A stretch of 64,000 nt of DNA, from positions 941,518-1,005,517 of the forward strand of contig NZ_QBKB01000002.1 of assembly GCF_004137855.1 (NCBI RefSeq), read 5' to 3'. The translations under genes were made by a program, and so were the position numbers. Of the stretch, positions 14,843 to 41,333 are shown piece after piece; position 1 is the first letter of the stretch, and every line of letters starts with the position of its first letter. The DNA comes from Methanohalophilus profundi (GTDB taxonomy: Archaea; Halobacteriota; Methanosarcinia; Methanosarcinales; Methanosarcinaceae). The notes under the pieces are model-generated. The model saw only the letters and a program-made list of their open reading frames with translations, made no database searches and had not been told where the DNA came from.

Positions 14843-14882
14843 TCAGCCACAATTGCGGATTATTTGTAAATAATAGTATTTT

Positions 14883-15203
14883 ATGGGCTCTGTAGAAACC
14901 TATTCTCTACCCTCAAGTCAACTTATGCAGGATATGTTCACTTCATCCATGCAATCACCCGATGGTGTTGATACCGGCATAGGGATGATCCTGCATACGG
15001 ATGTGGGAAGCCTGGAGACCCTTTCCCTCCTGGTCCTTCTGATCATAGCGGTCCATGCCATTATATCCGCTCTGATGATCCGGGTTGTAGACGGAGGACA
15101 TCCTCTGGTCGGAGCTACTGATTTTGTGATTATGATGTGGATTGGCGGAGGAAGCGCCGTGGTAACAGAGAAGGGAATTGCCTCCCTGCTGGGCGTGACC
15201 TGA
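14883..15203 (+). pseudogene. Orphan C-terminal fragment resembling archaellum assembly protein ArlJ (FlaJ)
   Basis: The frame encodes 106 residues. The second half has two transmembrane helices (about 44-68 and 80-104) separated by ALMIRVVDGGHPLVGATDFV, which matches the end of ArlJ/FlaJ and of archaeal GspF-like proteins, where IRVVDGGH is a hallmark. A full protein has more than 500 residues, so at most the last fifth is present. No other archaellum gene is nearby. It starts 40 bases after pyrH with no good ribosome site. I judge it a remnant, though a short membrane protein that is still expressed cannot be excluded. Confidence 0.55.
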
Positions 15204-15206
15204 AAA

Positions 15207-21622: not shown

Positions 21623-21724
21623 AGCCCACACTTCTTGAAATGATTGATAAGATGATTGATGCAATTGTATTGTTCAATCCAATTTAAAAGTTTTGAGAAG
21701 ATGAAAGATAGCCGATGACTGAAA

Positions 21725-22645
21725 TCAGGAAAAGAATTTCTCATAGACATAACCAAAAGGTTTCATGCCTTTATTCAAGATGTCAACGAGATAAATGCCC
21801 GCCTTTTTCCAAACAGGCAAAGCATTCCACAGAGACGAATCTTTCCTGAAAGTAAACAGGCTCCAGGAATTATCATCTGAACCGGAAAGAGAGGATGCTG
21901 CATTTTTGTTCATTTTTCTGGACATCTGGGGATACCGGTGAGATAACTGATAGAAACCCCGGCCAATCCGGAATGATTTTTTGAGCAAAATTTTCAGCGA
22001 TGTCCTTGCCGGGTGATACATGACAATATCAGGATCATAATATAAGTTGTAGCCCGCATCAAAAACACGGTTGCCGAACTCATAATCCCCGCTGGATATC
22101 AAATTTGGGTCAAAGACACCCACATGTTCAAAAATCTCTTTGCGGACTACAAGACAACATGTAGGTGCAAAATATCTTTTATACACATATTCATCCATGG
22201 GAAACCCTGACAGCTTATTGTGCAGGGCTGACAGGGAATTACTTTCAGAATAGATCTCCACCCTGCAACCCAGGTAATCCGCATTGTGTTCGGCCATGGA
22301 TTGGCTTATGTTTTGCAGCCAGTCCTTTTCCACTGTCATATCGGAATCGATAAAGGCAATAATCGAGCCTTTAGCAATCTCAAGTCCCCTGTTGCGGGCA
22401 GCATAGGAACTCTGGATAGTATCCTCTACAACAAGTTTTACTGAATAGTTACAATACTTTTCTGCAATGTCCGGGGTATTATCCGTGGAACCATTATCCG
22501 CAACTATGATTTCAAATTTTCCCGGATACTCCTGTGCCACCAGGGATTGCAGCGTATCCTCTAGGCCTGATGGATCATTGTACACCGGAATGATCACGGA
22601 GATAAATGAATTCTCGTTTTTTTGGGGAGAGTGTGGCATTTTCAA
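21725..22645 (-). CDS. Glycosyltransferase family 2
   Basis: The 306-residue enzyme has a GT-A fold: VIIPVYNDPSGLEDTLQSL at about residues 18-36, the IIVADNGSTDN UDP-binding stretch, and AFIDSDMTVEKDW with the DxD metal site. It lacks obvious membrane helices, so it is probably a peripheral cytosolic enzyme adding a sugar to a lipid-linked glycan. The start overlaps the upstream gene by four bases. Donor and acceptor are unknown. Confidence 0.9.
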   Translation of the reverse strand: MKMPHSPQKNENSFISVIIPVYNDPSGLEDTLQSLVAQEYPGKFEIIVADNGSTDNTPDIAEKYCNYSVKLVVEDTIQSSYAARNRGLEIAKGSIIAFIDSDMTVEKDWLQNISQSMAEHNADYLGCRVEIYSESNSLSALHNKLSGFPMDEYVYKRYFAPTCCLVVRKEIFEHVGVFDPNLISSGDYEFGNRVFDAGYNLYYDPDIVMYHPARTSLKILLKKSFRIGRGFYQLSHRYPQMSRKMNKNAASSLSGSDDNSWSLFTFRKDSSLWNALPVWKKAGIYLVDILNKGMKPFGYVYEKFFS

Positions 22646-23794
22646 TCCTTTAGTTGTACTCTGTGTAATATAGCAGAGGGCATTCGGGTCAATTCATAGA
22701 TACGTGAGGTATGGGTGACAGGGTCTTCTGTATTTCGATCCAGCATACCGGTTTCATGGTTGTAGCATTTCCTAAACTGTCTGTTGACCCACCTGTCGGT
22801 AATGTCCACCAGATCATTCTCATCCATATGCTTTAACATATACAGCGAATAAGGGACCTCAAATCCAGGTGGATTATAGGGATATCCGTATTTATTGGAT
22901 TCCAATGCATAGACATATTCATCTTTTAACATATAATCAACAGCCTTTCTGAAATTTTCAGTCTCCCAGAATTCACCGGAAGGCATGTTCTTCTTCAAAA
23001 GGGCAAATGCATACATATTGAATGAATGATAACCTATGGACTTGTGCTTCTGTTTCCTGATCCTGTCATCCAGATCCATCCCGATGAGAGGAACCTTTTT
23101 GATCAAACTTCTATACCTGAATTTCTGGAAGGTGGACAAAAGGCCTGCATGTAAATCATCAATAGAGATGTTTTCCCTTAACCTCTCAATATGATGATGA
23201 ATGAGCCCATCATCCAGGATTGTGAGATTTTGCGGCAGGCATTCAATAAAACGCCCCACCCTATCCATGACCTCAGGATGGTCGTCACCTATCAGGGAGC
23301 CGCAGGCTGCAAACCACAACTGGTGATTGAATGTCTCATCCATTGATAGAACCCGACCATCAATCTCAAGACGGTTCCACAAACCGTATTTGTGGTTGAA
23401 CTGGTGCTTAGTGAACACATCTGCTGCAACTGACCTATATTTTTCATCACCGAAAACCTCTGCAGCTGTGACAAGGGCTTCAATGGTCCAGGCCTGTCCC
23501 ATCAGCCCATTGCAGCTGTCCTTACCTTTTTTTGGTGCGGTGATGGAACGAAAAACCATGTGGTCTTGCCTTTTTGGAAGACAGGTAACCTGCAATCTCG
23601 CAGACCTTATCCCTATATATTGCATTTCCTGTCAGCTCATAGCATTTCGCAAAGATCATTAACCAGTGCCCGGAGGTTCGAACTGGTGTTTCCGGGTCAT
23701 GATAGGGACCATTGTGGCCGGCCGGAAATGAACCATCAGGATTCTGCAGGTGGCAAATCCTGTCAGATACAGCGATTATGACATCACTCAGCAT
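22642..23794 (-). CDS. (alpha/alpha)6-barrel glycan-related protein (AglQ-like), one frameshift
   Basis: Two frames encode a single helical-repeat protein. The first starts at 23794 (MLSDVIIAVSDRICHLQNPD) and contains GSFPAGHNGPYHDPETPVRT. The second contains CNGLMGQAWTIEALVTAAE and NHQLWFAACGSLIGDDHP, ending at 22642. The switch is at a run of seven T (23527-23533); six would give HHRTKKGKDSCNGL in one frame. The repeats resemble the unsaturated-glucuronyl hydrolase type barrel and AglQ of archaeal agl clusters. It overlaps the downstream GT2 by four bases. Role in trimming or modifying the glycan is inferred. Confidence 0.7.
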
Positions 23795-23847
23795 TTATTT
23801 GCTCCGTTTCAACTTTAACACATTAATGATGGGTGAAATATTACTAA

Positions 23848-25071
23848 TTATATATTCTTGTATTCAATTGAATTTTGGAATATTTCTTCTATTTTTTTAG
23901 CTTTATCCTCAAAGCGAAAATCATTTAAAACTGTTTGATAGGCCTTTTCTCCCAAAGATATCCTTAAATTCGAATTTAGATATAATTCATGCAATGCTTC
24001 TGTTATACTATCACTATCTTCTACAGGAACGAGAATGCCATTTTCTTTATTTGAAATTAATTCAGAGGGACCTGTATCACAATTGGTAGATATGCAGGAA
24101 AGTTTTAAAGCCATTGCTTCTAAAAGCACATTGGGAAAACCTTCACGTCTTGATGGAAGTATAAAAACTGAAGATACTTTAAAAAAGGGATATGGATTAT
24201 GCTGTTCACCAACAAAATTGACATAATCAGATATTCCAAGAGATAATACTTTTTCTTTCAATTTATTTTCATCTTTCCCCGTTCCTACAATAATTAATTG
24301 ACTACTAATATCTCTAGGTTCTTTTAAGAAATTCGAATAAGCAAGCAACAATATGTCGAGCCCTTTTCGGTATTCATCTAAACTGCCACAATATAAAATA
24401 TTAAATGAATTTGAATTTATTCCTTTTAGATCAATTGGTTTTGTAGACAACGATTGTAATTTTTCAATATTTACACCATTTTGAACAATTTTTATTTTAG
24501 AATCACATAAAGGGAGTTTCTTTTTAAGACGCTCACCTCCTGTATGTGATACACAAACAATTTTGGACTTGAGTCTCAATATGCAAATCAACCAGGGTGC
24601 AGATCCAAAATTAAATTTTGCTTTGATTTTTTTATAACAATAATTGAAAGGATTGCGTTGAATCTGGGGTTCCGGTAAAATTTGACCACTAATAAAAATT
24701 ACACTTGGAATTCCAGAAAAAAACGCTGATAGAATAGTTATTTTATTTCCCAAAAAAGCCCTACTATAAATTAAATCTATCTCATTTTGCTTTATGTAGC
24801 GAACCACTTTTCTTATTGTTTTAAATGTTATAGTGTTCCATATTTTGCGCCAAAGGTAAATTGATTTTTGACGTGTTTTAGGGTTCACAATATAATATTC
24901 AAAATTATTTTGTTTCAATACTTCAAAATAGTCTCCTTTTTCTTCTATTACTATGATAGATACTGACCAGCCTTTTGCCCTCAAATTTTCAGCTATAGCT
25001 AATCCTTGACGTTCAGTTCCTCTTGATTTTAAATATGGTAAGACGAGAGCTATTTTATGACTTGTATTCAT
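23848..25071 (-). CDS. Glycosyltransferase family 4
   Basis: A 407-residue GT-B enzyme. The N-terminal half begins VLPYLKSRGTERQGLAIAENL, typical for GT4. The C-terminal half has NILYCGSLDEYRKGLDILLLA, VIVGTGKDENKL-type sequence and the E-x7-E motif region PSRREGFPNVLLEAMALKL. From here to 29.5 kb the DNA is markedly richer in A+T than the flanking housekeeping genes, suggesting transfer. The gene probably builds the oligosaccharide transferred by AglB or flipped by the Wzx protein. Confidence 0.9.
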   Translation of the reverse strand: MNTSHKIALVLPYLKSRGTERQGLAIAENLRAKGWSVSIIVIEEKGDYFEVLKQNNFEYYIVNPKTRQKSIYLWRKIWNTITFKTIRKVVRYIKQNEIDLIYSRAFLGNKITILSAFFSGIPSVIFISGQILPEPQIQRNPFNYCYKKIKAKFNFGSAPWLICILRLKSKIVCVSHTGGERLKKKLPLCDSKIKIVQNGVNIEKLQSLSTKPIDLKGINSNSFNILYCGSLDEYRKGLDILLLAYSNFLKEPRDISSQLIIVGTGKDENKLKEKVLSLGISDYVNFVGEQHNPYPFFKVSSVFILPSRREGFPNVLLEAMALKLSCISTNCDTGPSELISNKENGILVPVEDSDSITEALHELYLNSNLRISLGEKAYQTVLNDFRFEDKAKKIEEIFQNSIEYKNI

Positions 25072-25170
25072 GTTTGTACATTATTCCTTTCCATTTTTAA
25101 GTATACTTCTCAAAAATCACATGCTGAATTACATATGTTACCCAAGTACTTCTACTTATATAAACGTCTA

Positions 25171-26063
25171 TTAGTAATACCTATATTTTAATGCTAGAGG
25201 CCACGAGATAATCCAATAATAAAAAAGGTCTTTATATGAAAGGTGTTCTTTCCATTCAAATGACTGTTTTAATACAACATTGTCTGATGAAAATCTCATT
25301 CTGTTTCCAGCCAAAATGTGACCTTTTACTGGTATCCCTGAACCATTAATTAATTTATCAGATATGTCTGAAAAGTTAAGGTTTAGCATTCTTCCAATTT
25401 TAGATAGGACTATATCAGGAGTGGAAATTAAATCTTCATATCGGACCCTAATTTTTTTTAGCATTAATTCTATGGCTTACAAGTTCACTTTGTAGATTTG
25501 TTAAAAACCAACCTTTTTATTCTTTTTTTCTCATCAGGATTTTTTTTCATGATAGAATAACTTACCCCTCTTCCATCTCTAATCAGATGAATTAAAATTA
25601 GTTCAATTTCGGGTATCAAAGAAAGATAAAAAGCACGAGTTGGATTTTTAGATGAATCAACAATAATATTTTTCCCACTCGATGAACTTAGTGATTTTAG
25701 AAATTCGAGAGTATAAAATAAATATTGATTAAAATCTTCACTTTTACTCCAATTTAAGTTGAAAGGGATTTTCGTGTCTTCATATTTTTTTTGAAGGCGT
25801 TGATATGATTTTATATTTTTGATACCAGTCCTATATTTCCAGGTATCAATTACTTGGTTACAAAACTGACAGGTTTGACTTTTTTGACCACATGTACATA
25901 GACAATTTTCCTGATATTTATTAAGAAAATTGTTATATTTCAATTCACCACAACTTTGGATTTCGGGATGATTCCCCAAAATAATATCCAAAAGAGTGGA
26001 CCCACTATGCCCAGCCCCCATTACATAAATTACTTTTATCTTTTGCCGTTCAATCATAACCAT
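25171..26063 (-). CDS. PAPS-dependent sulfotransferase, two frameshifts
   Basis: Two frames and a short third one together form a sulfotransferase of about 295 residues. The 5'-phosphosulfate loop is MGAGHSGSTLLDIILG near the start, followed by a Cys-rich segment (CLCTCGQKSQTCQFC) and VDSSKNPTRAFYLSL (3'-phosphate loop). The first frame stops at 25485. Removing one A from each of two runs (complement of T5 at about 25511-25515 and T8 at 25452-25459) restores GWFLTNLQSELVSHRINAKK and then IRVRYEDLIS in one frame. The protein would transfer sulfate to a sugar. It is one of three sulfotransferases here. Confidence 0.75.
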
Positions 26064-26166
26064 GAATTCACCTTATTATTAAAATTAATACAGTATCATT
26101 ATTAGTGCGCGATGAGATAAAAAATATAATAGAACTATATAACCAGACAATCGATATAAATCTTGA

Positions 26167-26985
26167 TTAATTATTCCAATTATAAGATAGAACAGATATT
26201 TCATTTGCACATATTTTTTCAATTTTAGCACGTGAGTGCTTGTCTAGAATTTCGGAATAATGTGATTTATTTTTCCGATACTTATGCTTTGATAAAGGCA
26301 ACTTTATTTCATCACAAATCCTAATTTTATCTTTAATAAAATGCAGGCATTCTGACATATTCTCATATCTACCTACAAAATCAACTGCTATTTCATCATT
26401 TATGGTATAAATATACCAATTCGAAATTAATCCAGTTGGTTGATTTTTCAAGTATTCAAAAAGTGTAGGTGTTTCGGCAAGATGCTTTTTGCTCCAGCAA
26501 TAATTTTTGAATGTTTTGGTGTATGAAAAATTATCAAGTGGAGGCAGGCGGTACAAAAATTCGGATATATCCGGACTTATATTCTTTTTTCTAGTACTCC
26601 AATGATATCTACTAATTGCTTTATCATATGGATTACGTTCAAAGCAAAATTTGAAATAATTTTTCCAGACATCCTCCGAAACATGGTTTTTAATATAACT
26701 TGCAGGAACATGATTGTAATATTTATAATAAGGTTTTAATTGATTATTAAGCACTGAAATTTCATCACACATATAATATAATTTGTTTTTTATGATATAG
26801 TTCTGAGGGCCACGATAACCTAACTCAAGTCGAATTTTCTCATCTTCTGGAGATATTGGAGTTATTATATCATCAGGCCCACAATATTTAGACAGAGCAA
26901 TTTCAATACTTGTACCTGCTGTTTTTTTTGTTTTGATAAATATAAATTTATGTTTATGGCTAATAATCATATTAATCGATCTCAC
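26167..26985 (-). CDS. Sulfotransferase family 2-type protein
   Basis: The intact 272-residue protein starts near MIISHKHKFIFIKTKKTAGT; KTKKTAGTSIEIALS is the 5'-phosphosulfate-binding loop and CFERNPYDKAISRY is the 3'-phosphate region (RNP). Later sequence includes VDFVGRYENMSECLHFIKDK. It resembles carbohydrate sulfotransferases of the Sulfotransfer_2 type. The acceptor sugar is unknown. It shares the AT-rich composition of its neighbours and is the only one of the three sulfotransferase genes here without a frameshift. Confidence 0.85.
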   Translation of the reverse strand: MRSINMIISHKHKFIFIKTKKTAGTSIEIALSKYCGPDDIITPISPEDEKIRLELGYRGPQNYIIKNKLYYMCDEISVLNNQLKPYYKYYNHVPASYIKNHVSEDVWKNYFKFCFERNPYDKAISRYHWSTRKKNISPDISEFLYRLPPLDNFSYTKTFKNYCWSKKHLAETPTLFEYLKNQPTGLISNWYIYTINDEIAVDFVGRYENMSECLHFIKDKIRICDEIKLPLSKHKYRKNKSHYSEILDKHSRAKIEKICANEISVLSYNWNN

Positions 26986-27034
26986 TAAAGGACTACTGAC
27001 AAATTATTACTATTCTCTGAGTATATGATATAAA

Positions 27035-28091
27035 TTATACCCTATAATGCAACTTATACCAATCCACGAACCTCTTAATCCCGTCATCAATGGGAGTATC
27101 TGGCCTATAGTTAAAATCTTTCATCAAATCATCCACATCTGCCCAGGTAGAAACAACATCACCTGGTTGCATAGGCTTGTAGTTCTTTTTTTACTTCTTT
27201 TCCTGTAGCTTTTTCTACTGCTCCTATAAAATCCATCAGGTTTACAGGACGGTTGTTCCCAATGTTATAGATTCTATATGGAGCCTTTGAAATGGATGGC
27301 ACCGGCTCTTCAGAGTACCATTCATTATTTCCTTCTGGTGGTTCACTACCTATAATTTTAATAATGCCAGCCACAACATCATCTACATAGGTAAAATCCC
27401 TTTCCATATTGCCATAGTTGTACACATCAATTGACCTGTCTTCAATTATGGCCTTTGTAAATTTGAAATAAGCCATATCCGGGCGTCCCCATGGACCATA
27501 TACTGTGAAAAAACGAAGCCCTGTAGTGGGTATTCCATATAAGTGGCTGTATGTGTGTGCCATCAATTCATTAGATTTTTTGCTTGCAGCATATAAACTT
27601 ACAGGGTGATCCACATTATCCTGTGTAGAAAATGGCATTTTTGTGTTGAGACCATAGACACTTGAACTGCTAGCATATACCAGATGTTTGATATTGTTAT
27701 GCCTACATCCTTCAAGAATATTCATGAATCCAACGATATTACTTTGGATGTAGGTATGAGGATCTTTTAAGCTGTATCTAACTCCTGCCTGTGCTGCAAG
27801 ATGGCACACAACATCAAATCCTTCCGTTTCAAAAAGATTTTCTATGTTACCCCTGTCTTCAATATTTAATTTTATAAACCTGTAATCCATATATTCGTTG
27901 CTCTGGACAAACCTATTGTATCCTAGGTTTTTAGAATCTATTCCTGTCTGTTCAAGTCGCCCAAATTTCAAATCTATATCATAATAATTGTTGATGTTGT
28001 CAAGTCCAACGATTTCATGACCAGAATTAACTAATTTTTTTACAAGATGAAAGCCTATGAATCCAGCATTACCTGTTACTAATATCTTCAT
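27035..28091 (-). CDS. UDP-glucuronate 4-epimerase-like NAD-dependent epimerase, one frameshift
   Basis: The protein is an extended short-chain dehydrogenase: MKILVTGNAGFIGFHLVKKL holds the NAD-binding GxxGxxG, and VYGLNTKMPF with YAASKKSNE carry the catalytic Ser/Tyr-x3-Lys. As sequenced the frame ends early at 27159 (QAYATR). Shortening the T7 run at 27186-27192 to six gives EVKKNYKPMQPGDVVSTWAD and a normal C-terminus ending in KLHYRV at 27035. The corrected length is about 350 residues, as for UDP-glucuronate 4-epimerases of capsule clusters. It supplies an uronic acid or other epimerised sugar donor; the precise specificity is inferred. Confidence 0.82.
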
Positions 28092-28104
28092 GATCATCAA
28101 TATA

Positions 28105-28813
28105 TTAAAAATGGTAGTTGAAATATTCTATGTCTTTTTTATAAATTAATTCCACAATTTTTTTTGTTTCATTATTATAATATTTCCTATAATGTTTGTG
28201 TGAAGTTCTATTTTTTACAGGTAATTCACCCTTAACCCCAAGATAATGTTTTATTTTATCAAAATCCTCATCTAGATTTTCAAATTTGCCTACAAAATCA
28301 ACAATGATTTCATCTTTATCATTGGTAATCCACTCTACTTGAGGCTGACACTGACTAAATCCTTAACATTATATATTCCAATTGGGTCTATGCCATTTAG
28401 ATATATATATTCCACAAATTTTGTAAATGAATATTTTTTTACTCAGTTTTCCTGTTTTTAGGAAGTAAAAGTACAAAGAAACCAACCGATCCCAAGGATT
28501 TCTAACAAAAGCGAATTTGAATGATTTTGAAAAAAAAATCTGGAGATATGATGTGGTTTTCCAAAAGAGTTAATACATTCACATGACCAAAGGTTACTAT
28601 ACCACCATTATCAAATTTATGGAAATGTTGTGATTTTTTGATTTTGTGACATCCATGATTTGAAAGAACATCATATATACTGGTGCCAGCAGTTTTTGGT
28701 ATCCAGAAAAAGATAGCATCCTTTCCATTTTTATTATAAGTAACGTCCAACCTCTTCATAATTTTAATATATTTTTTGTTAACATGGGGAGATGCTATTA
28801 TTTTATCTACCAT
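28105..28813 (-). pseudogene. Sulfotransferase family 2-type protein, several frameshifts; may be fused to the upstream methyltransferase
   Basis: The first frame gives FFWIPKTAGTSIYDVLS, the 5'-phosphosulfate loop. Further on, other frames give FAFVRNPWDRLVSLYFYFLK (3'-phosphate region), FVEYIYLNGIDPIGIYNV, and VDFVGKFENLDEDFDKIKHY, in the right order to TAA at 28105. Three single-base shifts are needed: one too many A in the run 28530-28538, one too many T in 28434-28440, and one missing base near 28350-28356. All fit sequencing error or decay. Correcting the upstream T8 run (28850-28857) also joins it to the methyltransferase. Confidence 0.6.
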
Positions 28814-28832
28814 TTTATGAAGTAGACTGTCT

Positions 28833-29423
28833 TTAGATATATATTGATATTTTTTTTATTTGTAACGGAGCTTTTGATGATTCAAGTTCATTATTGAAAG
28901 TACCTATGTTATAATGGCGATAGTGTTTATTTTTTAGAGGAACGACGGTTGTGGGTACGGAAATTATAACTTTCCCTGATTTTTTTGTTTTGTTAGCTAA
29001 ATCATTTATAAAACTATCAACATCACAATCTGGCACGTGTTCTAATGTTTCAATACAAGTAACTACATCAAACACAGAATTTAAATTATTAACATCTTCG
29101 TTATAATATGTAAATTGGGGGTTGAATCCTTTTGCAAATTGTATTGCTCTGTAGGAGAGATCACAACCTACCTTTTCAATATCATCACTTAATTCGCTTA
29201 TAAATCTTCCATCACCACATCCTACATCCAAAACAGAAGTGGGATTTGATTTTTCAACCATTTCTTTTATGTGATATATATAACAAAGATATCCAAAAGC
29301 TGGTGAATCTAATCGATGTCTGAGAGGGTAACAATTTTCATCTAAAGCAGATATATGATGATATGGAAATGTATATTGATTATCTTGAACTTTAAATTTG
29401 TTTTTTTGATCCATTACATACAA
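28833..29423 (-). CDS. SAM-dependent methyltransferase of the glycan cluster
   Basis: The visible 196 residues contain a complete class I core: VLDVGCGDGRFISELS (motif I, about residues 65-80), VGCDLSYRAI, NEDVNNLNSVFDVVTCIETL and SGKVIISVPT. Start is ATG near 29423. The frame stops after ISIYI at 28833. If one base is removed from the T8 run at 28850-28857, the reading continues YQYISKDSLLHKMVDK into the sulfotransferase without a stop. The protein probably methylates a sugar or a lipid-linked intermediate; the fusion is a separate hypothesis. Confidence 0.8.
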   Translation of the reverse strand: MYVMDQKNKFKVQDNQYTFPYHHISALDENCYPLRHRLDSPAFGYLCYIYHIKEMVEKSNPTSVLDVGCGDGRFISELSDDIEKVGCDLSYRAIQFAKGFNPQFTYYNEDVNNLNSVFDVVTCIETLEHVPDCDVDSFINDLANKTKKSGKVIISVPTTVVPLKNKHYRHYNIGTFNNELESSKAPLQIKKISIYI

Positions 29424-29569
29424 CTCCTATTTCTCCCAAACTTAACCTAATATAGAGCATTTTATCACTGTAGTAGATGTTCCGTTAAAAAACAATAATA
29501 TGATTATATAAAAGAATCGCTAATTTTGAAAACGATAATTTCTTCACTATTTCCAACAATCTGTTAATT

Positions 29570-31012: not shown

Positions 31013-31143
31013 TGTTGGACCAAATTAATTAGAATAACACTTAGACAGAATAATAGAGACTCAGGATTTAAAGGGAATTGAAATATTAAAGTAAAAACTT
31101 TGTGGTTTCAAGTTATTAAAAAATAGAATTGTTCGGCAAAATG

Positions 31144-31590
31144 TCACTCAAATGAATAAACTTCTGCGTCTATTTTCTTTTCGATATCATTCACAATGGA
31201 ACTGGAAGCAACCATCACAACATCAGCACCATACATCCCCGCAGCCTCAATCACCTGCTCCACAAAATCACCCTTCACCTTCACCGTCTCAAACTCAATC
31301 CCACGCTTTCCAGCCTCTTCTTCCACCCTGCTAAGCCTCTGGGCAATCAATTCATCCCTGTCTCTCTTGATATCAGCCGCCAGTTTCTCCACCACAGCCC
31401 TGCCCATGAAACCCTGGTCCTTTGTAACTCTGGCAACCTTTTCAGCCATATTCTTGTCGCGCACATTCAGTATGATAAGTCTGGCATTCTGCTCTTCTGC
31501 CATGTCAAGGGCTGCTTTTGCCAGATTGCGGTGGATCGAGGTTGCCGAAAAGGCCACAAGCACTGTATTGATCTCTGCCATATCATTCAT
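31144..31590 (-). CDS. Universal stress protein (UspA family)
   Basis: A 148-residue UspA fold protein: INTVLVAFSATSIHRNLAKA at the N-terminus, RLIILNVRDK, and a C-terminal ADVVMVASSSIVNDIEKKID. The usual ATP-binding G-x2-G-x9-G(S/T) motif is not fully preserved (VASSSIVND instead). It directly follows the DASS transporter gene with 12 bases between them, so it may tune or accompany the transporter, as Usp proteins often do in archaeal transporter operons. Confidence 0.85.
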   Translation of the reverse strand: MNDMAEINTVLVAFSATSIHRNLAKAALDMAEEQNARLIILNVRDKNMAEKVARVTKDQGFMGRAVVEKLAADIKRDRDELIAQRLSRVEEEAGKRGIEFETVKVKGDFVEQVIEAAGMYGADVVMVASSSIVNDIEKKIDAEVYSFE

Positions 31591-31602
31591 CCTATAAAGA
31601 AA

Positions 31603-32994: not shown

Positions 32995-33079
32995 TGATTT
33001 TGTACCTCTGGTTTACTTAATTTCTTCAATTTAATCAAATTAGCAGTAAATTGGATTGCAATGTCACAAAGGATAATTT

Positions 33080-33154
33080 TATAATATTTAAAATAAGTGT
33101 TCATTCATATTTAATCAATTCATTACAGAACGACTGCTTCAGGATTATTTAACA
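33080..33154 (+). promoter_or_regulatory. Promoter region of the cysQ-cysC-cysD-cysN genes
   Basis: A TATA-like element (TTTATAATATTTAAAATAAG, about 33078-33098) lies 55-75 bases before the cysQ start at 33155, between the divergent DASS and cysQ genes. The ribosome site is weak (AGGATT). Confidence 0.4.
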
Positions 33155-33957
33155 ATGAATAAAGAAACTATTCCCAAAATGCTGGAAGAATTAATTGAAA
33201 TATCCAGGGATGCCGGTAACATCATTTTGAACTACTATGATAACCCGGAACAATCCATCCAGATAAAGGAAGATGAATCACCCCTCACAAAGGCAGATAC
33301 AGAATCCAATGAATATATCTGTGGAAAACTCAAGGAATTGTATAACATCCCTATAATCTCAGAAGAATGTTATGATGCATATGATATAAGAAAGGATTAT
33401 TCTGAGTTTTTCCTTGTTGACCCCCTGGATGGAACAAAGGAATTTATCGAGCGCAACGGCGAATTCACAGTAAATATTGCATACGTGAAAAACAAAAGAC
33501 CTGTAATGGGAGTCATCTATGTGCCGGCATCCGGAACTACATTTTTTGCAGCCGAAAACTTCGGCTCCTATGTGGAAGACAGGAATGGAACAAAGAAACT
33601 ACCCTTAAATGAACTACCTAAAGGAGAACTTCGGCTACCGGCAGCAGAAAGCATAGTACAGGTCTTGATGCAGAGTTTGCCCGGATGAACAATATCCGGG
33701 AAACGGTTCCTGCAGGATCTTCGCTTAAGTTCTGCAAAGTGGCCATGGGACATGCTCACTTATATCCAAGATTCCAGGGTTCAATGGAATGGGATATCGC
33801 CGCGGGCCATATTGTTGCAAAGGAAGCCGGATGCAGATTAGTAGACCTTAAAACTATGGAAGAGCCTGAATACAACAAGGAATCATTACTAAATAATTAT
33901 TTTATAGTACTTGCCAAAGGGTTAGATATTTCTTCAATAAAGATACCTGAAATATAA
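33155..33957 (+). CDS. cysQ: 3'(2'),5'-bisphosphate nucleotidase (CysQ), one frameshift
   Basis: CysQ removes the 3'-phosphate of PAP, the by-product of every PAPS-dependent sulfotransfer, and so prevents inhibition of the sulfotransferases. The inositol-phosphatase fold is seen in the metal motifs ISEEC and DPLDGTKEFIERNGEF in the first frame and WDIAAGHIVAKEAGCR in the second. The frame breaks at about 33633; one extra base there gives an uninterrupted TGSRKHSTGLDAEFARMNNI. It is the first gene of the cysQCDN operon. Confidence 0.88.
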
Positions 33958-33968
33958 GGAGGATACCT

Positions 33969-34499
33969 ATGCCAGAGGAAGGATTTACAGTATGGTTTAC
34001 GGGATGGTCGGGCGCAGGTAAAACTACGATTGCGATTGCCCTTGAAGAAGAGTTGAATAAAAGGAATATCGGGCCCGTACAGAGACTTGATGGGGACATT
34101 ATCCGAAGTGATCTTTGCAGTGATCTGGGTTTTTCAAAAGAAGACAGGAATGAAAATATCAAAAGGGCGACATTTGTTGCTGAATTGCTGTCAAAAAATG
34201 GTGTCGCAACTCTTGTATCATTCATTTCCCCCTATATATCTCTACGAGAACGTGCAAGACATAAATGCCACAATTTCATTGAAGTTTACGTTAAATGTGA
34301 CAGGGACACCCTGATCAACCGGGATGTCAAAGGTCTTTATAAACAGGCAATTGAAGGCGAAATCAAGGAATTCACTGGCATCACTGACCCCTACGAAGAG
34401 CCTGAAAATCCGGAGATCGTCCTCAATACGGCAGAAGAGGATATCTCTGAATCTGTAGGGAAAGTTATTGAATATCTGGAAGAAAAAGGGCATATCTGA
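33969..34499 (+). CDS. cysC: Adenylylsulfate (APS) kinase
   Basis: CysC phosphorylates APS to PAPS, the sulfate donor. The 176-residue enzyme has the P-loop GWSGAGKTTIAIALE at about residues 13-27, RLDGDIIRSDLCSDLGF and FISPYISLRERARH. The C-terminal segment (YKQAIEGEIKEFTGITDPYE) matches the lid loop of the family. It starts 11 bases after cysQ with an AAGGAGG ribosome site and is followed closely by cysD. Confidence 0.95.
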   Translation: MPEEGFTVWFTGWSGAGKTTIAIALEEELNKRNIGPVQRLDGDIIRSDLCSDLGFSKEDRNENIKRATFVAELLSKNGVATLVSFISPYISLRERARHKCHNFIEVYVKCDRDTLINRDVKGLYKQAIEGEIKEFTGITDPYEEPENPEIVLNTAEEDISESVGKVIEYLEEKGHI

Positions 34500-34508
34500 G
34501 GACATCTC

Positions 34509-35417
34509 ATGGAAGAAAAGGAAGAATCCTACCACCTCTCAAACTTGAAGACACTTGAAGCCGAAAGTATAGGAATAATCAGGGAAGTTGCTGCAGAATT
34601 TGAAAATCCGGTGATGCTATATTCTGTTGGCAAAGATTCATCGGTGATGGCTCATCTGGCAATCAAGGCTTTTTATCCGGAAAAAGTACCTTTCCCTTTG
34701 CTACATATTGATACCAGCTACAAATTCCCGGAAATGTATGAATTCAGGGACTATTACACAAAAAAGCATGACCTGGACCTGAAAGTCCACAGGAATGAAG
34801 AAGCTCTGTCAAAAGGGATAAATCCTCTTTCTGCGGGAACAGTCAAATGTTGCGCCGAACTGAAAACAAAGGCCCTGCTGGATGCATTGAAAGAAGGCGG
34901 CTATGATGCTGCATTCGGGGGGGCCAGAAGGGATGAAGAAAAATCCCGGGCAAAAGAGAGGGTTTTTTCATTCCGTGACAAACATGGCCAATGGGACCCA
35001 AAGAATCAGAAACCGGAGTTATGGAATATTTTTAATTCAAGGATCGATCCGGGTGAATCCATAAGGGTATTCCCCCTTTCAAACTGGACCGAACTGGATA
35101 TCTGGACATACATATACCATGAAAATATCGAGGTCGTACCCCTTTACTTTGCAAAAAAGAGACCGGTTATCGAGAAGAACGACCAGCTCATCCCGGTTTA
35201 TACGGATGAAAATCCGGAAGAGACAAAGGAAGTAATGTGTCGCTTCAGGACCCTTGGATGCCATTACTGCACAGGTGCGGTAAGATCTGAGGCAGACACC
35301 ATGCCAAAAATTATTGAAGAAATGATGGTTGCACGCCATTCCGAGCGGATAACACGGGTCATTGATCATGATCAGGACAGTTCAATGGAGCAGAAAAAAA
35401 TGGAGGGGTATTTCTGA
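34509..35417 (+). CDS. cysD: Sulfate adenylyltransferase subunit 2
   Basis: CysD is the catalytic subunit that makes APS from ATP and sulfate together with the GTPase CysN. The 302-residue protein belongs to the PAPS-reductase/ATP pyrophosphatase fold with the [14 protein letters not shown] loop at about residues 40-53 and the [15 protein letters not shown] segment. [18 protein letters not shown] near the C-terminus is diagnostic for CysD. Ten bases separate it from cysC. Confidence 0.96.
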
Positions 35418-36964
35418 AGACTCCTGAAGCCTTGATCGAAGACAGTCAAAATATCGAACTGTTACGAATTACCACTGCAGGAAGCGTGGATGATGGAAAA
35501 TCCACTCTTATCGGACGCCTGCTGTATGATTCAAAATCAATATTTGAGGACCAGTTAAGTTCGATCAGGGATTACTCAAAGACCAACCGTAATCAGGAAA
35601 TCGATTATTCACTGATCACCGATGGCCTGAAATCCGAGAGAGAGCAGGGAATTACAATTGATGTTGCCTATCGCTTCTACTCAACTCCCAAGAGACGTTT
35701 TATAATAGCAGATACGCCGGGGCATGAGCAATATACAAGAAACATGGCCACCGGAGCATCAAATGCCTCCCTTGCCCTGATTCTTATTGATGCCAAAAAG
35801 GGCATTGTGACACAGACCAGAAGACACACATTTATTTCTTCCCTGCTGGGTATCCGCCATTTTGTGGTAGCCATTAATAAAATGGATCTTGTTGATTATT
35901 CAGAAGAGGTTTTCGAACAAATAGTTGAAGAATATAAAGCATTCGCTGAAAAACTGTCTGTCGAATCTATCTCTTTTATTCCCCTCAGTGCCCTGAAAGG
36001 TGACAATGTCATTGAACGTAGCACCAATATGCCCTGGTATCAGGGATCCCCTCTTCTTGATTATCTGGAAAATGTGAATGTAGCCGGCGGACGTAACTTG
36101 ATCGATTTCAGGTTCCCGGTCCAGTATGTCAACTGGAGTGGAAACGAATTCAGGGGATATTGCGGCACAATATCATCCGGAGTAATTCGTAAAGGCGAAC
36201 GTGTAATCGCCCTGCCCTCCGGAAGAACCAGTAAAATATCAAGAATTGTTACCTATGACGGAGACCTGGATTATGCCTTTGCCCCCATGGCAGTAACCCT
36301 CTGTATTGAGGATGACATAGACATCAGTCGTGGAGACCTGATTTCAAGGGAAAATAACCTGCCTGCCATCACGGGAAATATCGAAGCGAATGTTGTATGG
36401 ATGGATACAGAATCCATGCAAACCGGCAAAGATTATTTAATCAAGCATACCACCAAAACCGTAAAGGGCAGTTTTTCAGAAGTACGCTATAAATTCGATC
36501 TCGAAAAGATCCATAGAATACCTGCCGAATTCCTGAGCGTAAATGATATCGGGAAGGTGAAGATTGAACTTAAAAAGCCCCTTTACGCAGATCTTTATTC
36601 CAAAAACCGACTTACAGGTTCGTTCATTGTTATCGATCCACATACCAACCAGACAGTTGCCGCCGGCATGATATCCAAATACAAGCAGGTCTCTCCAGAT
36701 AAGGCATGTGAATCTGTAAAATCCAAAGTTATCAGATATCCCGGAGACAAAAAGGAAAAGGCAAAATCGGATTATGACCGTCTTTCCATGCAGGGCACCC
36801 AGTGCATCTATGTGGATGACGAAATTCTCCAAAAAGGCCTTTGCAGGGGAATTGCGGTCGATACCGATGAATATTCCAGGATTATAGAGGGTTTGTGCAA
36901 TATTGCTACAGAATCAGGAGTATCTGTGGTGTTGTGTACAGAGAATGAAGTTTCATTGGAATGA
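35414..36964 (+). CDS. cysN: Sulfate adenylyltransferase subunit 1 (GTPase)
   Basis: CysN is an EF-Tu-like GTPase that drives APS formation by CysD. It has [18 protein letters not shown] (G1), [19 protein letters not shown] (G3) and INKMDLVDY (G4). The C-terminal domains are of the EF-Tu type. The start is unclear. TTG at 35432 gives 510 residues, but GGAGGGG at 35402-35408 lies five bases before a CTG at 35414 in the same frame, which would be an unusual start. The coordinates given use the CTG. It overlaps the cysD stop by four bases in that case. Confidence 0.93.
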
Positions 36965-37013
36965 AAGGTAGAGGATGGAATATTTTTCATACCATCCTTT
37001 AGATAACTTCATT

Positions 37014-37280
37014 TCACTTCATGCCCGTTCTTATCTCCCCTACCAATCCCCTTACACAAACCCTGCATCGATAAAAGCATCCGGCTCCACCACATTCCTG
37101 CCATCCACGATAACAGGATGTGTCTGTCCGGACAACTCCTGCAACTGCCGGGGCTCCAGAGAATAATACTGCCTGTGGCCTGCAAAGATCACCACAGCAT
37201 CCACACCGTCCAGCACTCAGCCGGCGTATTCCGGGCGTCATCTGAATCATTGAGGAAAAGCCGATCCGGTATGGCTGCAT
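37014..37280 (-). pseudogene. Relic of a nucleotide-sugar dehydrogenase 3' end (copy 1)
   Basis: In one frame the minus strand reads VDAVVIFAGHRQYYSLEP, then HPVIVDGRNVVEPDAFIDAG, which is the C-terminal UDP-binding part of UDP-glucose / UDP-ManNAc dehydrogenases. The frame breaks after FV with a TAA, so the end (YKGIGRG in the second copy) is destroyed. About 172 bases are shared with a second relic at 38120-38320. No complete dehydrogenase gene is in the window. Confidence 0.7.
37021..37192. repeat. Direct repeat, copy 1 (nucleotide-sugar dehydrogenase 3' end)
   Basis: It begins ATGCCCGTTCTTATC on the plus strand and pairs with 38135-38308, with about 90% identity by eye and two small indels. 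The two copies lie in the same orientation and flank the DUF3368/UPF0175 gene pair. Confidence 0.75.
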
Positions 37281-37288
37281 TAATAATG

Positions 37289-37786
37289 TTATTCCTCTGT
37301 ATATTGTAAAACCCGATTATACAATTTATCGTCAATCCAGAATCCTGTCTCGTTACGAAGTTTATCTAATTCATCCTGAAGAGACATAATTCTGCCTTCA
37401 GACTTCGCACGCATCAAAATACCAATAATTCCGGTTATCCGCAATCCATACAGGTTCGCTACTCTTCTTGCCTCGGACTCATCCAGAAAAACTACATCAG
37501 GTTGCTGCTCAATAGCCAGCGCAATAGTTTCAGCCTCTCCGGCATGTAATTCCCGCTAAAGCAATCGAACCACAGGCTCGTTTGCAGGTGCCATAATCTT
37601 CACCCAACCCAAACTGTGGGCTTTCCTCACCTCAAGAGCACCGGATCTGCCATGGCCCTCCTCAACAACCTCCTTCCACACACCAGGCGTAATGAGAATC
37701 CTGTCATAAAATTCTTTCAATAACTCCAGGCGACCAATCCCTGTAGAATGAATCAAAGTGGAGGAATCACTGATGGCTTCGGACAT
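37289..37786 (-). CDS. DUF3368 PIN-like toxin with in-frame TAG
   Basis: From ATG 37786 (MSEAISDSSTLIHSTGIGRL) the frame reads 76 residues to an in-frame TAG at 37556-37558 and then continues 88 more residues without any stop, to TAA at 37289. The second half (RELHAGEAETIALAIEQQ, VVFLDESEARRVANLYG, LRITGIIGILMRAKSEG) is typical DUF3368/VapC-like sequence with its acidic residues. The TAG occupies one residue in an alignment by eye (VRLL-x-REL). Either pyrrolysine/readthrough gives a 165-residue protein, or the toxin is truncated. The gene overlaps the UPF0175 antitoxin by 20 bases. Confidence 0.75.
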
Positions 37787-38027
37787 AATCAAGATCTTCA
37801 TCCAAATTTTGTTCAGTATAGTGACGGGAAATTCCATGTCGCCCCAAAATTTCCTCGAACTCCCATCGGGTCATCCCGGCAAGAGCACAGGCTTTACCGG
37901 ATGAAAGTATACCACGTTGATACAATGCCAAAGAAAGTTCTTTGTGCAGTTCCCGATCCAAATCCCCGGGGGGGAAATGAATCGCATCTACAACATCATC
38001 AGGTATATTCAATGCAAATGCACTCAT
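37767..38027 (-). CDS. UPF0175 family antitoxin
   Basis: The 86-residue protein contains the UPF0175 pattern: FPPGDLDRELHKELSLALYQ, then RGILSSGKACALAGMTRWEF and EILGRHGI, a helix-turn-helix. This family is the usual upstream partner of DUF3368 PIN-type toxins, and the 20-base overlap with the next gene agrees. It probably binds DNA and represses its own operon. The pair sits between two direct repeats. Confidence 0.85.
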   Translation of the reverse strand: MSAFALNIPDDVVDAIHFPPGDLDRELHKELSLALYQRGILSSGKACALAGMTRWEFEEILGRHGISRHYTEQNLDEDLDYVRSHQ

Positions 38028-38119
38028 TTTTCTTCCTCTGTTCTTTTATCATAGATTATTCTTTATCTATTCATAATTATAGTTGTCCCTATAAAGAATA
38101 GATATATATCGATCTGTAT

Positions 38120-38320
38120 TTACTCAAACATCTTATGCCCGTTCTTATCCCCTCTGCCAATCCCCTTATACACAAACCCTGCATCAATGAAAGCATCTGA
38201 CTCCACCACATTCCTGCCATCCACGATAACAGGATGTGTCTGTCCGGACAACTTCTGCAACTGCCCGGGATCCAGAGAATAATACTGCCTGTGGCCTGCA
38301 AAGATCACGCTATGTCCACA
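38120..38320 (-). pseudogene. Relic of a nucleotide-sugar dehydrogenase 3' end (copy 2)
   Basis: Here the frame is open and keeps the natural C-terminus: HSVIFAGHRQYYSLDPGQLQ, HPVIVDGRNVVESDAFIDAG, FVYKGIGRGDKNGHKMFE, then TAA at 38120. Upstream of about 38320 the frame no longer looks like the family, so only the last 65 residues remain. With copy 1 this shows that a complete gene once existed nearby. Confidence 0.75.
38135..38308. repeat. Direct repeat, copy 2 (nucleotide-sugar dehydrogenase 3' end)
   Basis: It matches 37021-37192. The spacing between the copies is about 940 bases, holding the antitoxin/toxin pair. Such an arrangement is expected when a small element integrates at the 3' end of a gene or when tandem copies recombine. 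Confidence 0.75.
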
Positions 38321-38409
38321 CACATTACGGAAGGAAACTCCTGCTCTAAAAGTTGAATATATACTAACATCCCAAACAATTATATCCCATTCACACCCTA
38401 CCCAGACCA

Positions 38410-39537
38410 ATGAATTCCTTACTCATCGCAGCAATAATATTCACCGCCATCCCGGTTATTACATATCTTATTTACATCCTGGCAATCCTTAGATCCCAAA
38501 ACTCAAAAATCCACACACCTGATTCCCAACCTCCGATCACAGTGGTAATTCCCACCTACAACGAAAGTGAGGTCATCGAGCATCGTATCAAAAATATTGT
38601 TGAAATGGATTATCCTGCAGAAAACATCCATGTGATTGTAGTGGATGACCAGTCCACAGACAATACGGTAGGGCTGGCGGCAGAGGCTTTTAAAAAGTAT
38701 GACCTATCCGGCGAAGTGATCGTGAAGGAAAAACGTAGCGGTACCAATGCTTCGGTGAACATGGGAGTAGGAGAGGCAACTACCGATTTTGTGGTGACCA
38801 CGGATGCAGATGTCACCTTTGAGCCTGATGCGGTAAACCACGCCCTGGGCCGGCTGCTCAGCGATGAGAAAATTGGAGCGGTATGCGGGGAACTGGAACC
38901 CATCGCTCGCAGGGATTCCTTTACCACCCATTCCGAGAAAGCCTACAGGGATGTCTACGGCAGGATGTGTTCCTGGGAAAGTGGCCTGCATTCCACCTAC
39001 TGTTTCAACGGGCCCCTCATTGTGCTGAGGAAAAAAGCATTTTCTCCGATTCCCGAAACAAAAGGAGCATCCGATGCTGGCATGGCGCTGCGTATCATCC
39101 GCAATGGTTACCGCTGCCTCTACGAATCCTCTGCCCGGTTCTCTGAGTATATCACCAGTGACATGGGTCAGCAGCGCCGCCAGAAACTCAGACGCTCGGC
39201 CCGCTTGCAGGAAGCCACCATGCACAATATCGGGCTGATCTCACCAAAATACGGAAAATTCGGGATGTTTGTGCTGCCTTTACGCTTTACTATGTTCTTC
39301 ATAGCCCCCGCTTCATTCTTCCTGGCAGTGATACTCTGGTCGGTTGTGCTGGGTGGAATTAATCTATTCTGGGGCATCGGTGTATGGATATTGTTTGGCC
39401 TGGCACTGCTTTCAGGGCAATGGAAATCCAATCTCATATCATCCTTTATCTGGCACCAGATCTACTTGCTGGTAAGTCTGGTCTACATGTCCAGGGGAGT
39501 ACATGTCTGGCAGGCAATTGAAAGGAAGAAAGTGTAA
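38410..39537 (+). CDS. Membrane-bound glycosyltransferase family 2
   Basis: The 375-residue protein has an N-terminal membrane helix (about 3-27), a GT2 domain (ITVVIPTYNESEVIEHRIKN, VIVVDDQSTDNTVGLA, VTTDADVTFEPDAV with the DxD-like site, and QQRRQKLRRSARL corresponding to QxxRW), and two or three C-terminal helices (about 290-360). This architecture is that of processive or dolichol-phosphate-type transferases. It lies between the dehydrogenase relic and the TspO-like gene and may act in the same glycan pathway. The start overlaps nothing and has a weak ribosome site. Confidence 0.9.
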   Translation: MNSLLIAAIIFTAIPVITYLIYILAILRSQNSKIHTPDSQPPITVVIPTYNESEVIEHRIKNIVEMDYPAENIHVIVVDDQSTDNTVGLAAEAFKKYDLSGEVIVKEKRSGTNASVNMGVGEATTDFVVTTDADVTFEPDAVNHALGRLLSDEKIGAVCGELEPIARRDSFTTHSEKAYRDVYGRMCSWESGLHSTYCFNGPLIVLRKKAFSPIPETKGASDAGMALRIIRNGYRCLYESSARFSEYITSDMGQQRRQKLRRSARLQEATMHNIGLISPKYGKFGMFVLPLRFTMFFIAPASFFLAVILWSVVLGGINLFWGIGVWILFGLALLSGQWKSNLISSFIWHQIYLLVSLVYMSRGVHVWQAIERKKV

Positions 39538-39607
39538 ACAGCGATACAAATATCCCTCCTGGTTTACATCAATTAATTTGCAGGAACATTTGCAAAGGAA
39601 AAATAAG

Positions 39608-40430
39608 ATGGAACGAAATCAGCCAACATTGATGATCAAAATAATCACCACGGTAACTTTCTCAGCAATGGTCATTGCCAATGCACTGGCCAATGCTCTC
39701 CCGATCAATGGGCTCACTACCGGCCAGATATCGGATTTCTATCCCAATCCCTTTGCCCCGACAGGCTGGACCTTTGCAATCTGGGGACTCATCTATCTGC
39801 TGCTGGCTGGATATACACTATACCAGCTTGGGGTTTTTCAGGATAATGAAAATTCTGTCAGAAATGGACTGTTAAGTAAAATAGGAATTCTTTTCTCAAT
39901 TTCCTCCATTGCCAACGCCGCCTGGATTTTTGCCTGGCACTATCAGATCATACCATTATCTCTGCTGCTGATGTCGTAATCCTTGTATGTTTGATCCTGA
40001 TAAATCAAAAGATTAACAAAGAACAACTTTCTGCAAAAGAGAAACTGTTTATCGGATTGCCATTTAGCGTATACTTCGGCTGGATCACTGTGGCAACCAT
40101 TGCCAACGCTACTGTTCTTCTTGTCAGCCTGAACTGGCAGGGTTTTGGTTTACCTGAACCCACATGGGCATCTATTGTAATCATTCTTGGCTTTCCTATA
40201 GGAGCCGTGACAATGCTGAAAAACAGGGATGTTGCCTACGGCCTTGTTATTGTGTGGGCTTAGTGGGAATATTGTCCAGGCACACCTCAACTGAGGGATT
40301 TGGAGGGCAGTATCCTGTAATTATCAATATCACAACTGCGTGCATTGGATTGCTACTTCTTGGCGAAGCCTATCTTTTGATTTCAAAAAAGAGGAATGGG
40401 GATATGAGGCTTTTAGCAAAACAATCCTGA
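39608..40430 (+). CDS. TspO/MBR-like tryptophan-rich membrane protein, two frameshifts
   Basis: Three frames together encode a protein of about 270 residues with some eight hydrophobic helices. The first contains TVTFSAMVIANALANALPIN and FAPTGWTFAIWGLIYLLLAG. The second contains LPFSVYFGWITVATIANAT. The third contains QYPVIINITTACIGLLLLGE and ends in MRLLAKQS. One extra base near 39963-39970 joins frames 1 and 2 (ADVVILVCLILINQK), and one extra T near 40258-40262 joins frames 2 and 3 (VWALVGILSRH). It resembles the tryptophan-rich sensory protein family. Function is uncertain. Confidence 0.65.
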
Positions 40431-40472
40431 TTTGCTGCAGGGGAATACACCCCCATAAAATCAGTAACCCCT

Positions 40473-41333
40473 TCAGCCCAGCTTCTCCATATGCCCCAGG
40501 ATCTCGTCCCTCATCCCTTCATCCTTCAGGGCAAAATCCAGCACAGCCTTCACATACTCCACCTTGTTGCCGGAATCATAACGCTGGCCTGTGAACTGGT
40601 GCGCATACACCTTCTGTGAATCATTGAGCAACCGGATCCCGTCGGTCAGCTGGATCTCGCCACCCACGCCTTTGGAGGTCTGCTTTATGCAATCGAAGAT
40701 CTCCGGAGTGAAAACGTAACGCCCGATGGCACCGATATTGGAGGGAGCCTCCTCCACAGAGGGTTTTTCCACGATGTCATCCAGGGCGTAGAGATATTCA
40801 TCCACAGGACTGCCGCTTATTATCCCGTAACTGCTGACCTTATCCTGTGGCACTTCCTCCACCGCGATCGTGGAGCGGCCGTATTTGCGGAAGACATCGA
40901 TCAGCTGACGTGTACAGGGTTTCTCATTGACAATGATATCATCCCCCAGCAGCACTGCAAAGGGGTCGCCACTGACATGTTTGCGAGCAGTCATTATGGC
41001 ATCCCCCAGCCCGTTGGGTTCCTTCTGGCGGATGTAGTGGATATCCACCATTGAAGAAATCTCCTGCACCATTTCCAGCATGTCATACTTGCCCCGATTC
41101 TGCAGATGCATCTCCAGTTCAGGACAGCCGTCAAAATAATCCTCGATTGCCCGCTTGTTACGCCCGGTTACAAATATGATATCATCTATCCCGGATTCAA
41201 TGGCTTCCTGTACCACATAATGGATAACAGGAGTATCAATAATCGGCAGCATCTCTTTGGGCATTGATTTTGTGACCGGCAGGAAACGGGTCCCCAGCCC
41301 CGCCACCGGTATTACGGCCTTTTTTACATCCAT
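40473..41333 (-). CDS. galU: UTP-glucose-1-phosphate uridylyltransferase
   Basis: GalU makes UDP-glucose, the precursor of UDP-glucuronate and many glycans. The 287-residue protein starts MDVKKAVIPVAGLGTRFLPV at ATG 41333, preceded by AGAGGATG. Further signatures are TKSMPKEMLPI, GDDIIVNEKP, and VEKPSVEEAPSN, and GGEIQLTDGI is conserved. A longer frame from 41354 (MLPEDAE) is less likely because the ribosome site lies inside it. The gene faces the TspO-like gene and ends the glycan region. Confidence 0.95.
   Translation of the reverse strand: MDVKKAVIPVAGLGTRFLPVTKSMPKEMLPIIDTPVIHYVVQEAIESGIDDIIFVTGRNKRAIEDYFDGCPELEMHLQNRGKYDMLEMVQEISSMVDIHYIRQKEPNGLGDAIMTARKHVSGDPFAVLLGDDIIVNEKPCTRQLIDVFRKYGRSTIAVEEVPQDKVSSYGIISGSPVDEYLYALDDIVEKPSVEEAPSNIGAIGRYVFTPEIFDCIKQTSKGVGGEIQLTDGIRLLNDSQKVYAHQFTGQRYDSGNKVEYVKAVLDFALKDEGMRDEILGHMEKLG

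Follow-up and report, generated by a model that had tools for sequence, protein, structure and literature searches.

A 64,000-nucleotide stretch of the genome of the methanogen Methanohalophilus profundi (hereafter the window) carries an island that probably makes a sulfated surface glycan. The island, defined as the interval from aglB to galU, encodes three sulfotransferases, glycosyltransferases, a Wzx-type flippase, a DASS-family transporter and the products of cysQ-cysC-cysD-cysN, as identified with Pfam and NCBIfam. The window spans positions 941518-1005517 within a 1.83-Mb genome with an estimated completeness of about 90%. A sequence-only reading of this DNA had assigned its 3'-phosphoadenosine 5'-phosphosulfate (PAPS) to sulfation and not to assimilation. 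That assignment now finds support in the co-occurrence of adenosine 5'-phosphosulfate (APS) kinase and sulfotransferases among related genomes, in the separation of cysC and CysH-type reductase genes into different loci, and in the absence of a CysH-type reductase from the genomes of both M. profundi and M. portucalensis. The genes for sulfate uptake, activation and transfer, with PAP standing for 3'-phosphoadenosine 5'-phosphate, are as follows (window coordinates).

25485-26063, minus strand: sulfotransferase 1 (Sulfotransfer_3), N-terminal part; PF13469, 29.3 bits (cut-off 27)
26167-26985, minus strand: sulfotransferase 2 (Sulfotransfer_2), whole; PF03567, 29.1 bits (cut-off 22)
28114-28813, minus strand: sulfotransferase 3 (Sulfotransfer_2), frame-broken; PF03567, E 1.3e-10, and the motif IPKTAGTS
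31144-31590, minus strand: Usp-family protein, between Wzx and DASS; PF00582
31603-32994, minus strand: DASS sodium-coupled anion symporter; TIGR00785, 317.6 bits (cut-off 198.6)
33155-33956, plus strand: cysQ, PAP phosphatase, broken; TIGR01331, 158.1 bits for the first part (whole-protein cut-off 228.8)
33969-34499, plus strand: cysC, APS kinase; TIGR00455, 216.7 bits (cut-off 138.7), PDB-sequence matches 5cb6 and 8a8h
34509-35417, plus strand: cysD, sulfate adenylyltransferase small subunit; TIGR02039, 452.3 bits (cut-off 396.6)
35432-36964, plus strand: cysN, sulfate adenylyltransferase GTPase subunit; TIGR02034, 586.3 bits (cut-off 336.1)

CysD, CysN and CysC, the module for PAPS synthesis, all exceeded the cut-offs of curated models. 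Three PAPS-dependent sulfotransferases had been proposed from the letters: two were upheld by Pfam cut-offs and the third by a whole-genome match, but two of the three are frame-broken. Similarly, cysQ matched its family over the first part but is broken, which the sequence-only reading had not mentioned. In sulfotransferase 1, the stretches GAGHSGSTL and RDGRGVSYS could be aligned to three relatives, the longest of which has 302 amino acids; its frame breaks, and the apparent C-terminal part, read by eye, continues to about position 25170. Sulfotransferase 2 and its M. portucalensis homologue have KTAGTS and RNPYDKAIS in common, and a PDB sequence search with the former gave no useful match. 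We take the aligned stretches to be the 5'-phosphosulfate-binding (5'-PSB) and 3'-phosphate-binding (3'-PB) motifs for PAPS. In sulfotransferase 3, the open reading frame (ORF) 28502-28813 holds the KTAGTS loop and had no NCBIfam match on its own (Pfam was not run on this ORF alone); the continuation, 28114-28539, was matched in the whole-genome Sulfotransfer_2 search and contains two internal stops.

Gene content was compared across 111 Methanosarcinaceae genomes, including that of the window, and the comparison favoured sulfation. A true APS kinase (E<1e-50, with at most 31 candidates scored per genome) was found in six: the window genome (G000), M. portucalensis FDF-1 (G035), Methanococcoides (G021), Methanolobus (G050), Methanohalobium evestigatum Z-7303 (G029) and a Methanohalobium (G030). 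Weak matches to short P-loop stretches (best E 1.6e-6) had been discarded before the count, lowering the tally from 81/111 to 6/111. Searches with PF13469, PF03567 and PF00685 combined found sulfotransferases in five genomes (G000, G035, G021, G029 and M. mahii SLP, G034). PF17784, which was searched only after such a gene had been noticed beside cysQ in G050, added G050 and G071. With all four families, sulfotransferase genes occurred in 5 of the 6 genomes with APS kinase versus 2 of the 105 others (Fisher's test, 9.7e-7), and without PF17784 in 4/6 versus 1/105 (p 1.2e-5). As the genomes are related, these p-values are too sharp, and the fairest count is by genus (4/4 versus 1/10, p 0.005). 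Nine of ten candidate sulfotransferases scanned in relatives exceeded the Pfam cut-off; the tenth, L034:6315-7109, which has a late start, scored 24.5 against a cut-off of 27, and 39.8 bits over a longer frame. The sulfotransferase genes found in genomes with no detected APS kinase lie at L044 9985-10773 (M. mahii) and G071:C26:8415-9020.

The neighbourhoods of these genes point in the same direction as the counts. The DASS-Usp pair adjoins the activation genes at all six APS-kinase loci. In Methanococcoides, two sulfotransferase genes adjoin a Wzx-Usp-DASS-CysN-CysD-CysC run, and in Methanolobus one adjoins cysQ, while the two sulfotransferase genes of Methanohalobium are found in other loci, together with a Wzx homologue.

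The cysD loci of the family were of two kinds. Strong loci, with TIGR02039 above its cut-off, numbered 25 in 24 genomes, a count that excludes weaker CysD matches (such as the G055 fragment and the divergent copy of G104) as well as locus L053, from the metagenome-assembled genome ZodW, which was used only in the tree described below. Four loci (in G000, G035, G050 and G021) contain cysC, and ORF lists revealed an adjacent CysH-type reductase at none of them. Of the 21 loci without cysC, 20 have a gene with a PAPS_reduct domain 32-153 bases upstream, as measured between tblastn matches, and 16 a sulfite-reductase gene beyond the reductase; none of the 21 had CysC, CysQ, DASS or Usp matches in pieces of 5-20 kb. 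The exception is G033, in which the reductase is on another contig and cysDN, lacking cysC, lies among polysaccharide genes ca. 22 kb from aglB. Hence, cysDN beside glycan genes does not by itself mark a sulfation locus. At that place (L144 8774-11226), CysDN belongs to the reductase-linked group, and neither CysC nor a reductase adjoins it. G021 has both, one copy of each, separated by 1.69 Mb, and is the only genome with reductase-linked cysD to encode an APS kinase; assimilation in the others therefore needs no PAPS.

Two further loci were noted in the course of this comparison. M. mahii, whose genome has no APS kinase, contains a compact cluster of sulfite reductase, CysH-type reductase and Sat-type ATP sulfurylase genes (L158 5695-8723). 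In G104, divergent CysD-like (44%) and CysN-like (33%) genes flank a permease-looking ORF and are surrounded by Wzx-like and other glycan genes (L154 7395-10307). No match to the window CysC was found at this locus, which could be another sulfation cassette.

Several observations weigh against a sulfated glycan as the product of the island, and some of them favour assimilatory sulfate reduction, in which PRK13795-type proteins would reduce PAPS and Fsr would reduce sulfite. Outside the window, the M. profundi genome encodes two PRK13795-type PAPS-reductase-like proteins, 31% alike over 307 residues, and an Fsr-like protein of 638 amino acids, which together with a small sulfite-reductase-like ORF makes up its sulfite-reductase candidates. 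A fourth PAPS_reduct match in the genome was weak, below the cut-off, and CysD was the sole match within the window. The claim that the window holds no PAPS reductase was thus correct, but it is too weak an argument alone, given the PRK13795-type and Fsr-like proteins encoded elsewhere. Neither the window genome nor that of M. portucalensis has a CysH-type reductase (best matches E 2.3e-8 and 4.2e-11, against E below 1e-70 in 29 genomes; the AprAB-like type was not searched for in the window genome). This absence was dropped as the main argument because the genome contains PAPS_reduct proteins other than CysD, and the family is present in every genome searched. The four other genomes with APS kinase (G021, G050, G029 and G030) also hold a CysH-type reductase at a different place. 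Its substrate bears on the question: three copies scanned (L054, L158 and L143) passed TIGR02055 (APS_reductase) and failed TIGR02057 (PAPS_reductase), but the same copies also passed NF002537 and TIGR00434, both named phosphoadenylyl-sulfate reductase. Since they pass models of both names, the models alone do not fix the substrate, and a better argument for APS is the absence of APS kinase from the genomes of these clusters, G021 apart. In line with assimilation, Guan et al. (2019; PMC6491703), in the available portion of their paper, list CysDN, PAPSS and PAPS reductase for M. portucalensis and interpret these genes as a full sulfate-assimilation pathway, pending verification. Our interpretation goes against that view. 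A 657-residue PRK13795-type query matched in all 111 genomes, versus APS kinase in 6/111, so that the distribution of this family does not follow PAPS supply. No dedicated APS or PAPS reductase, the mark of assimilatory sulfate reduction that was sought, was found alongside the activation genes, and the cysD clusters that do bear a reductase have no cysC. Moreover, assimilation leaves the sulfotransferases and Wzx at the locus unexplained. According to the part of PMC6286981 available, two arginines that bind sulfite are missing from the Group II Fsr proteins of Methanosarcinales, and the function of these proteins is questioned there; this would bear on the Fsr-like protein of the window genome if it belongs to that group. 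Combined, these observations make assimilation an unlikely purpose for the island.

Transfer of the sulfo group to lipids or small molecules, and not to a surface glycan, is likewise improbable. Sulfotransferase families of this sort act on many acceptors, a breadth that would accommodate such products. Among PDB entries, those most similar to the Methanococcoides enzyme are polyketide-synthase and tyrosyl-protein sulfotransferases, and near the Methanolobus sulfotransferase no match to the island glycosyltransferases or Wzx was found in L036-L038. Against this stand the position of the island between aglB and galU and the location of sulfotransferases among Wzx and glycosyltransferase genes in four of the five genomes that have both APS kinase and sulfotransferase. 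It is also improbable that the island is decaying in the M. profundi strain and makes nothing, which would be compatible with a working island in relatives. The breaks in cysQ and two sulfotransferase genes in the window assembly count towards decay, as do two shortened genes, the methyltransferase (196 amino acids versus 245 in its M. portucalensis homologue) and the epimerase (313 versus 353). However, both halves of cysQ (33155-33688 in one frame, the remainder to 33956 in another, one net base short relative to M. portucalensis) remain conserved, and in M. portucalensis the gene has an open frame of 264 amino acids up to the edge of the sequence piece, with the aligned stop just past it. 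The assembly also splits a PRK13795-type gene that lies outside the island, ca. 8 kb to the left of the window, so the breaks are likely single-base sequence errors, and the genome is estimated to be only 90% complete. Frame breaks in several conserved genes were seen in the window and at L026 10245-12001, suggesting single-base assembly errors. The remaining points against a sulfated glycan concern its distribution and its product. G034 and G071 have a sulfotransferase and no APS kinase, G030 has an APS kinase and no sulfotransferase found by the family searches, and L053 carries cysQCDN with no DASS or Usp match and no sulfotransferase in the seven downstream ORFs scanned. At L053 (8645-12450, 21 kb covered), a phosphate-uptake-looking operon lies upstream of cysQ-cysC-cysD-cysN. 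Finally, the sulfated product is predicted from genes only, and its acceptor and role are deduced from them.

A sulfated surface glycan would also accommodate the other genes of the island and its borders.

19157-21664, minus strand: AglB oligosaccharyltransferase, left border; Pfam STT3, AglB_core-like and AglB_L1
21725-22645, minus strand: family 2 glycosyltransferase (GT2); PF00535, E 8.8e-33
22642-23625, minus strand: ORF of 327 amino acids between the GT2 and GT4 genes, overlapping the former by a few bases
23848-25071, minus strand: family 4 glycosyltransferase (GT4); PF13692/PF00534
27159-28100, minus strand: NAD-dependent sugar-nucleotide epimerase, C-terminus shortened; PF01370
28833-29423, minus strand: S-adenosylmethionine-dependent methyltransferase, shortened; PF13489
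29570-31012, minus strand: Wzx-type flippase; PF13440/PF01943
38410-39537, plus strand: GT2 glycosyltransferase, right border of the variable slot; PF00535
40473-41354, minus strand: GalU-like nucleotidyltransferase; PF00483
43009-47913, plus strand: PGF-CTERM surface protein of 1634 amino acids, possible acceptor; PF18204

Pfam and NCBIfam thus bore out the gene list of the sequence-only reading from AglB to the GalU-like protein, including both GT2 enzymes, GT4, the epimerase, the methyltransferase, Wzx, DASS and cysQCDN, each at the place given for it. The epimerase had 5u4q as its top PDB-sequence match (E 1.2e-125), followed by 6zl6, and the 327-residue ORF had no match in Pfam, NCBIfam or the PDB-sequence search. 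The nearby surface proteins, described earlier as sequon-rich, proved so for the 1634-residue protein (52 sequons versus 30.8 ± 4.7 in 2000 shuffles) but not for a 438-residue one (9 versus 7.6 ± 2.4).

Comparison within the genus indicated that the island occupies a variable slot. A match to aglB was found in all eight Methanohalophilus genomes. In M. halophilus (G032) and M. mahii the slot is empty and the homologue of the right-border GT2 directly adjoins aglB, the sulfation island fills it in the window genome and in M. portucalensis, and G031, G036 and G037 have other contents, with no cys match on the side of aglB covered. The M. portucalensis island contains three sulfotransferase genes, one with an internal stop, and a second glycan locus of that genome (L046) two more Sulfotransfer_3 genes, at 6109-7113 and 14515-15465. 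The M. portucalensis island also holds sialic-acid-synthase-like (below the model cut-off) and CMP-sugar-synthetase-looking genes (L034 11922-13972), of which none was seen in the window island. The Methanohalobium APS kinase shares only 45% identity with the window enzyme. A Sat-type ATP sulfurylase is encoded elsewhere in that genome, and next to cysC lies a gene for a DHH protein that, within the PDB, matches best to 8a8k, the PAP phosphatase of Methanothermococcus thermolithotrophicus (E 2.6e-36).

The relationship between both kinds of cysD locus was analyzed in a tree built from concatenated CysD and CysN sequences of 26 methanogen and 6 bacterial loci, rooted on distant bacterial sequences, some of which have a partial CysN. 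The 21 loci without cysC formed a single group nested inside the cysC-linked CysDN. Support was 96 for its grouping with the cysC-linked copy of G021, 100 on adding G050, 100 on adding the Methanohalophilus pair and 89 on adding L053, and a tree with two separate groups was rejected (approximately unbiased test, p 0.018). Because the reductase-linked CysDN is nested within the cysC-linked one in this rooted tree, the assimilatory CysDN may derive from the sulfation cassette. This forms part of a broader scenario, which we put forward tentatively: Methanosarcinaceae would possess a self-contained, swappable cassette for surface-glycan sulfation, composed of sulfate importer, CysQCDN, sulfotransferases and flippase, from which the assimilatory CysDN was derived, and Methanohalobium would have rebuilt the function around the same DASS-Usp pair from Sat, a distant APS kinase and a DHH PAP phosphatase.

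In the mechanism proposed for the island, the DASS protein, probably a sulfate importer, would bring in sulfate. CysDN is predicted to produce APS, which CysC would convert to PAPS, in accordance with their strong family assignment. Judging from family, motifs and neighbourhood, the sulfotransferases would use PAPS as the donor for sulfating sugars, presumably those assembled by the GT2 and GT4 enzymes, the epimerase and the methyltransferase of the island, and CysQ would clear the leftover PAP. The Wzx flippase would then export the lipid-linked glycan, and the position of AglB suggests a possible role in linking this glycan to proteins of the S-layer or to other PGF-CTERM proteins. The whole would behave as a cassette that is exchanged in the slot bounded by aglB on one side and by GT2/galU on the other.

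Known systems resemble this one in part. Halobacterium salinarum makes a sulfated N-glycan involving VNG1056C and VNG1057C (PMC11980604, as far as the available part of that report goes), and the likeness, an archaeal surface glycan with dedicated sulfotransferases, is by role rather than by sequence comparison. There, the sulfated product was seen by mass spectrometry, whereas the island is known from genes alone; it further differs in its methanogen host and in carrying DASS and CysQCDN within the same island. M. thermolithotrophicus (PMC10322725, available part) shares the ATP sulfurylase, the APS kinase (8a8h by sequence match) and the removal of PAP. However, it is described there as having no canonical sulfotransferase and an AprAB-like PAPS reduction, in contrast to the sulfotransferases of the window and its CysQ as PAP phosphatase. 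The CysH-CysDN clusters of Methanolobus and Methanococcoides (L133-L143 and L145-L153) have CysD proteins 87-93% identical to that of the window, but they are its opposite in composition, with a CysH-type and mostly a sulfite reductase, and without CysC, CysQ, DASS or Usp matches. Methanochondroitin of Methanosarcina, from the same family, is a surface polysaccharide containing uronic acid and is stated not to be sulfated in the part of PMC12369344 available.

Use of sulfate for sulfation in methanogens has hitherto been a suggestion only. The available part of PMC10322725 raises the possibility that other methanogens use PAPS for transfer via a non-canonical sulfotransferase ('route 1c'), with the reductases as a counterargument. 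Searches of open-licence PMC papers, covering titles and abstract starts of the papers listed (in two of the searches a part of the hits), did not show sulfotransferases or sulfated glycans being described for these methanogens; two papers containing the words had them only in cited references. The island supplies candidates for this route and would give methanogens a specific outlet for PAPS. Since there are cultured carriers of the genes (M. portucalensis and Methanohalobium evestigatum), as well as M. halophilus, which has neither APS kinase nor island, a role of the island in sulfation is directly testable.

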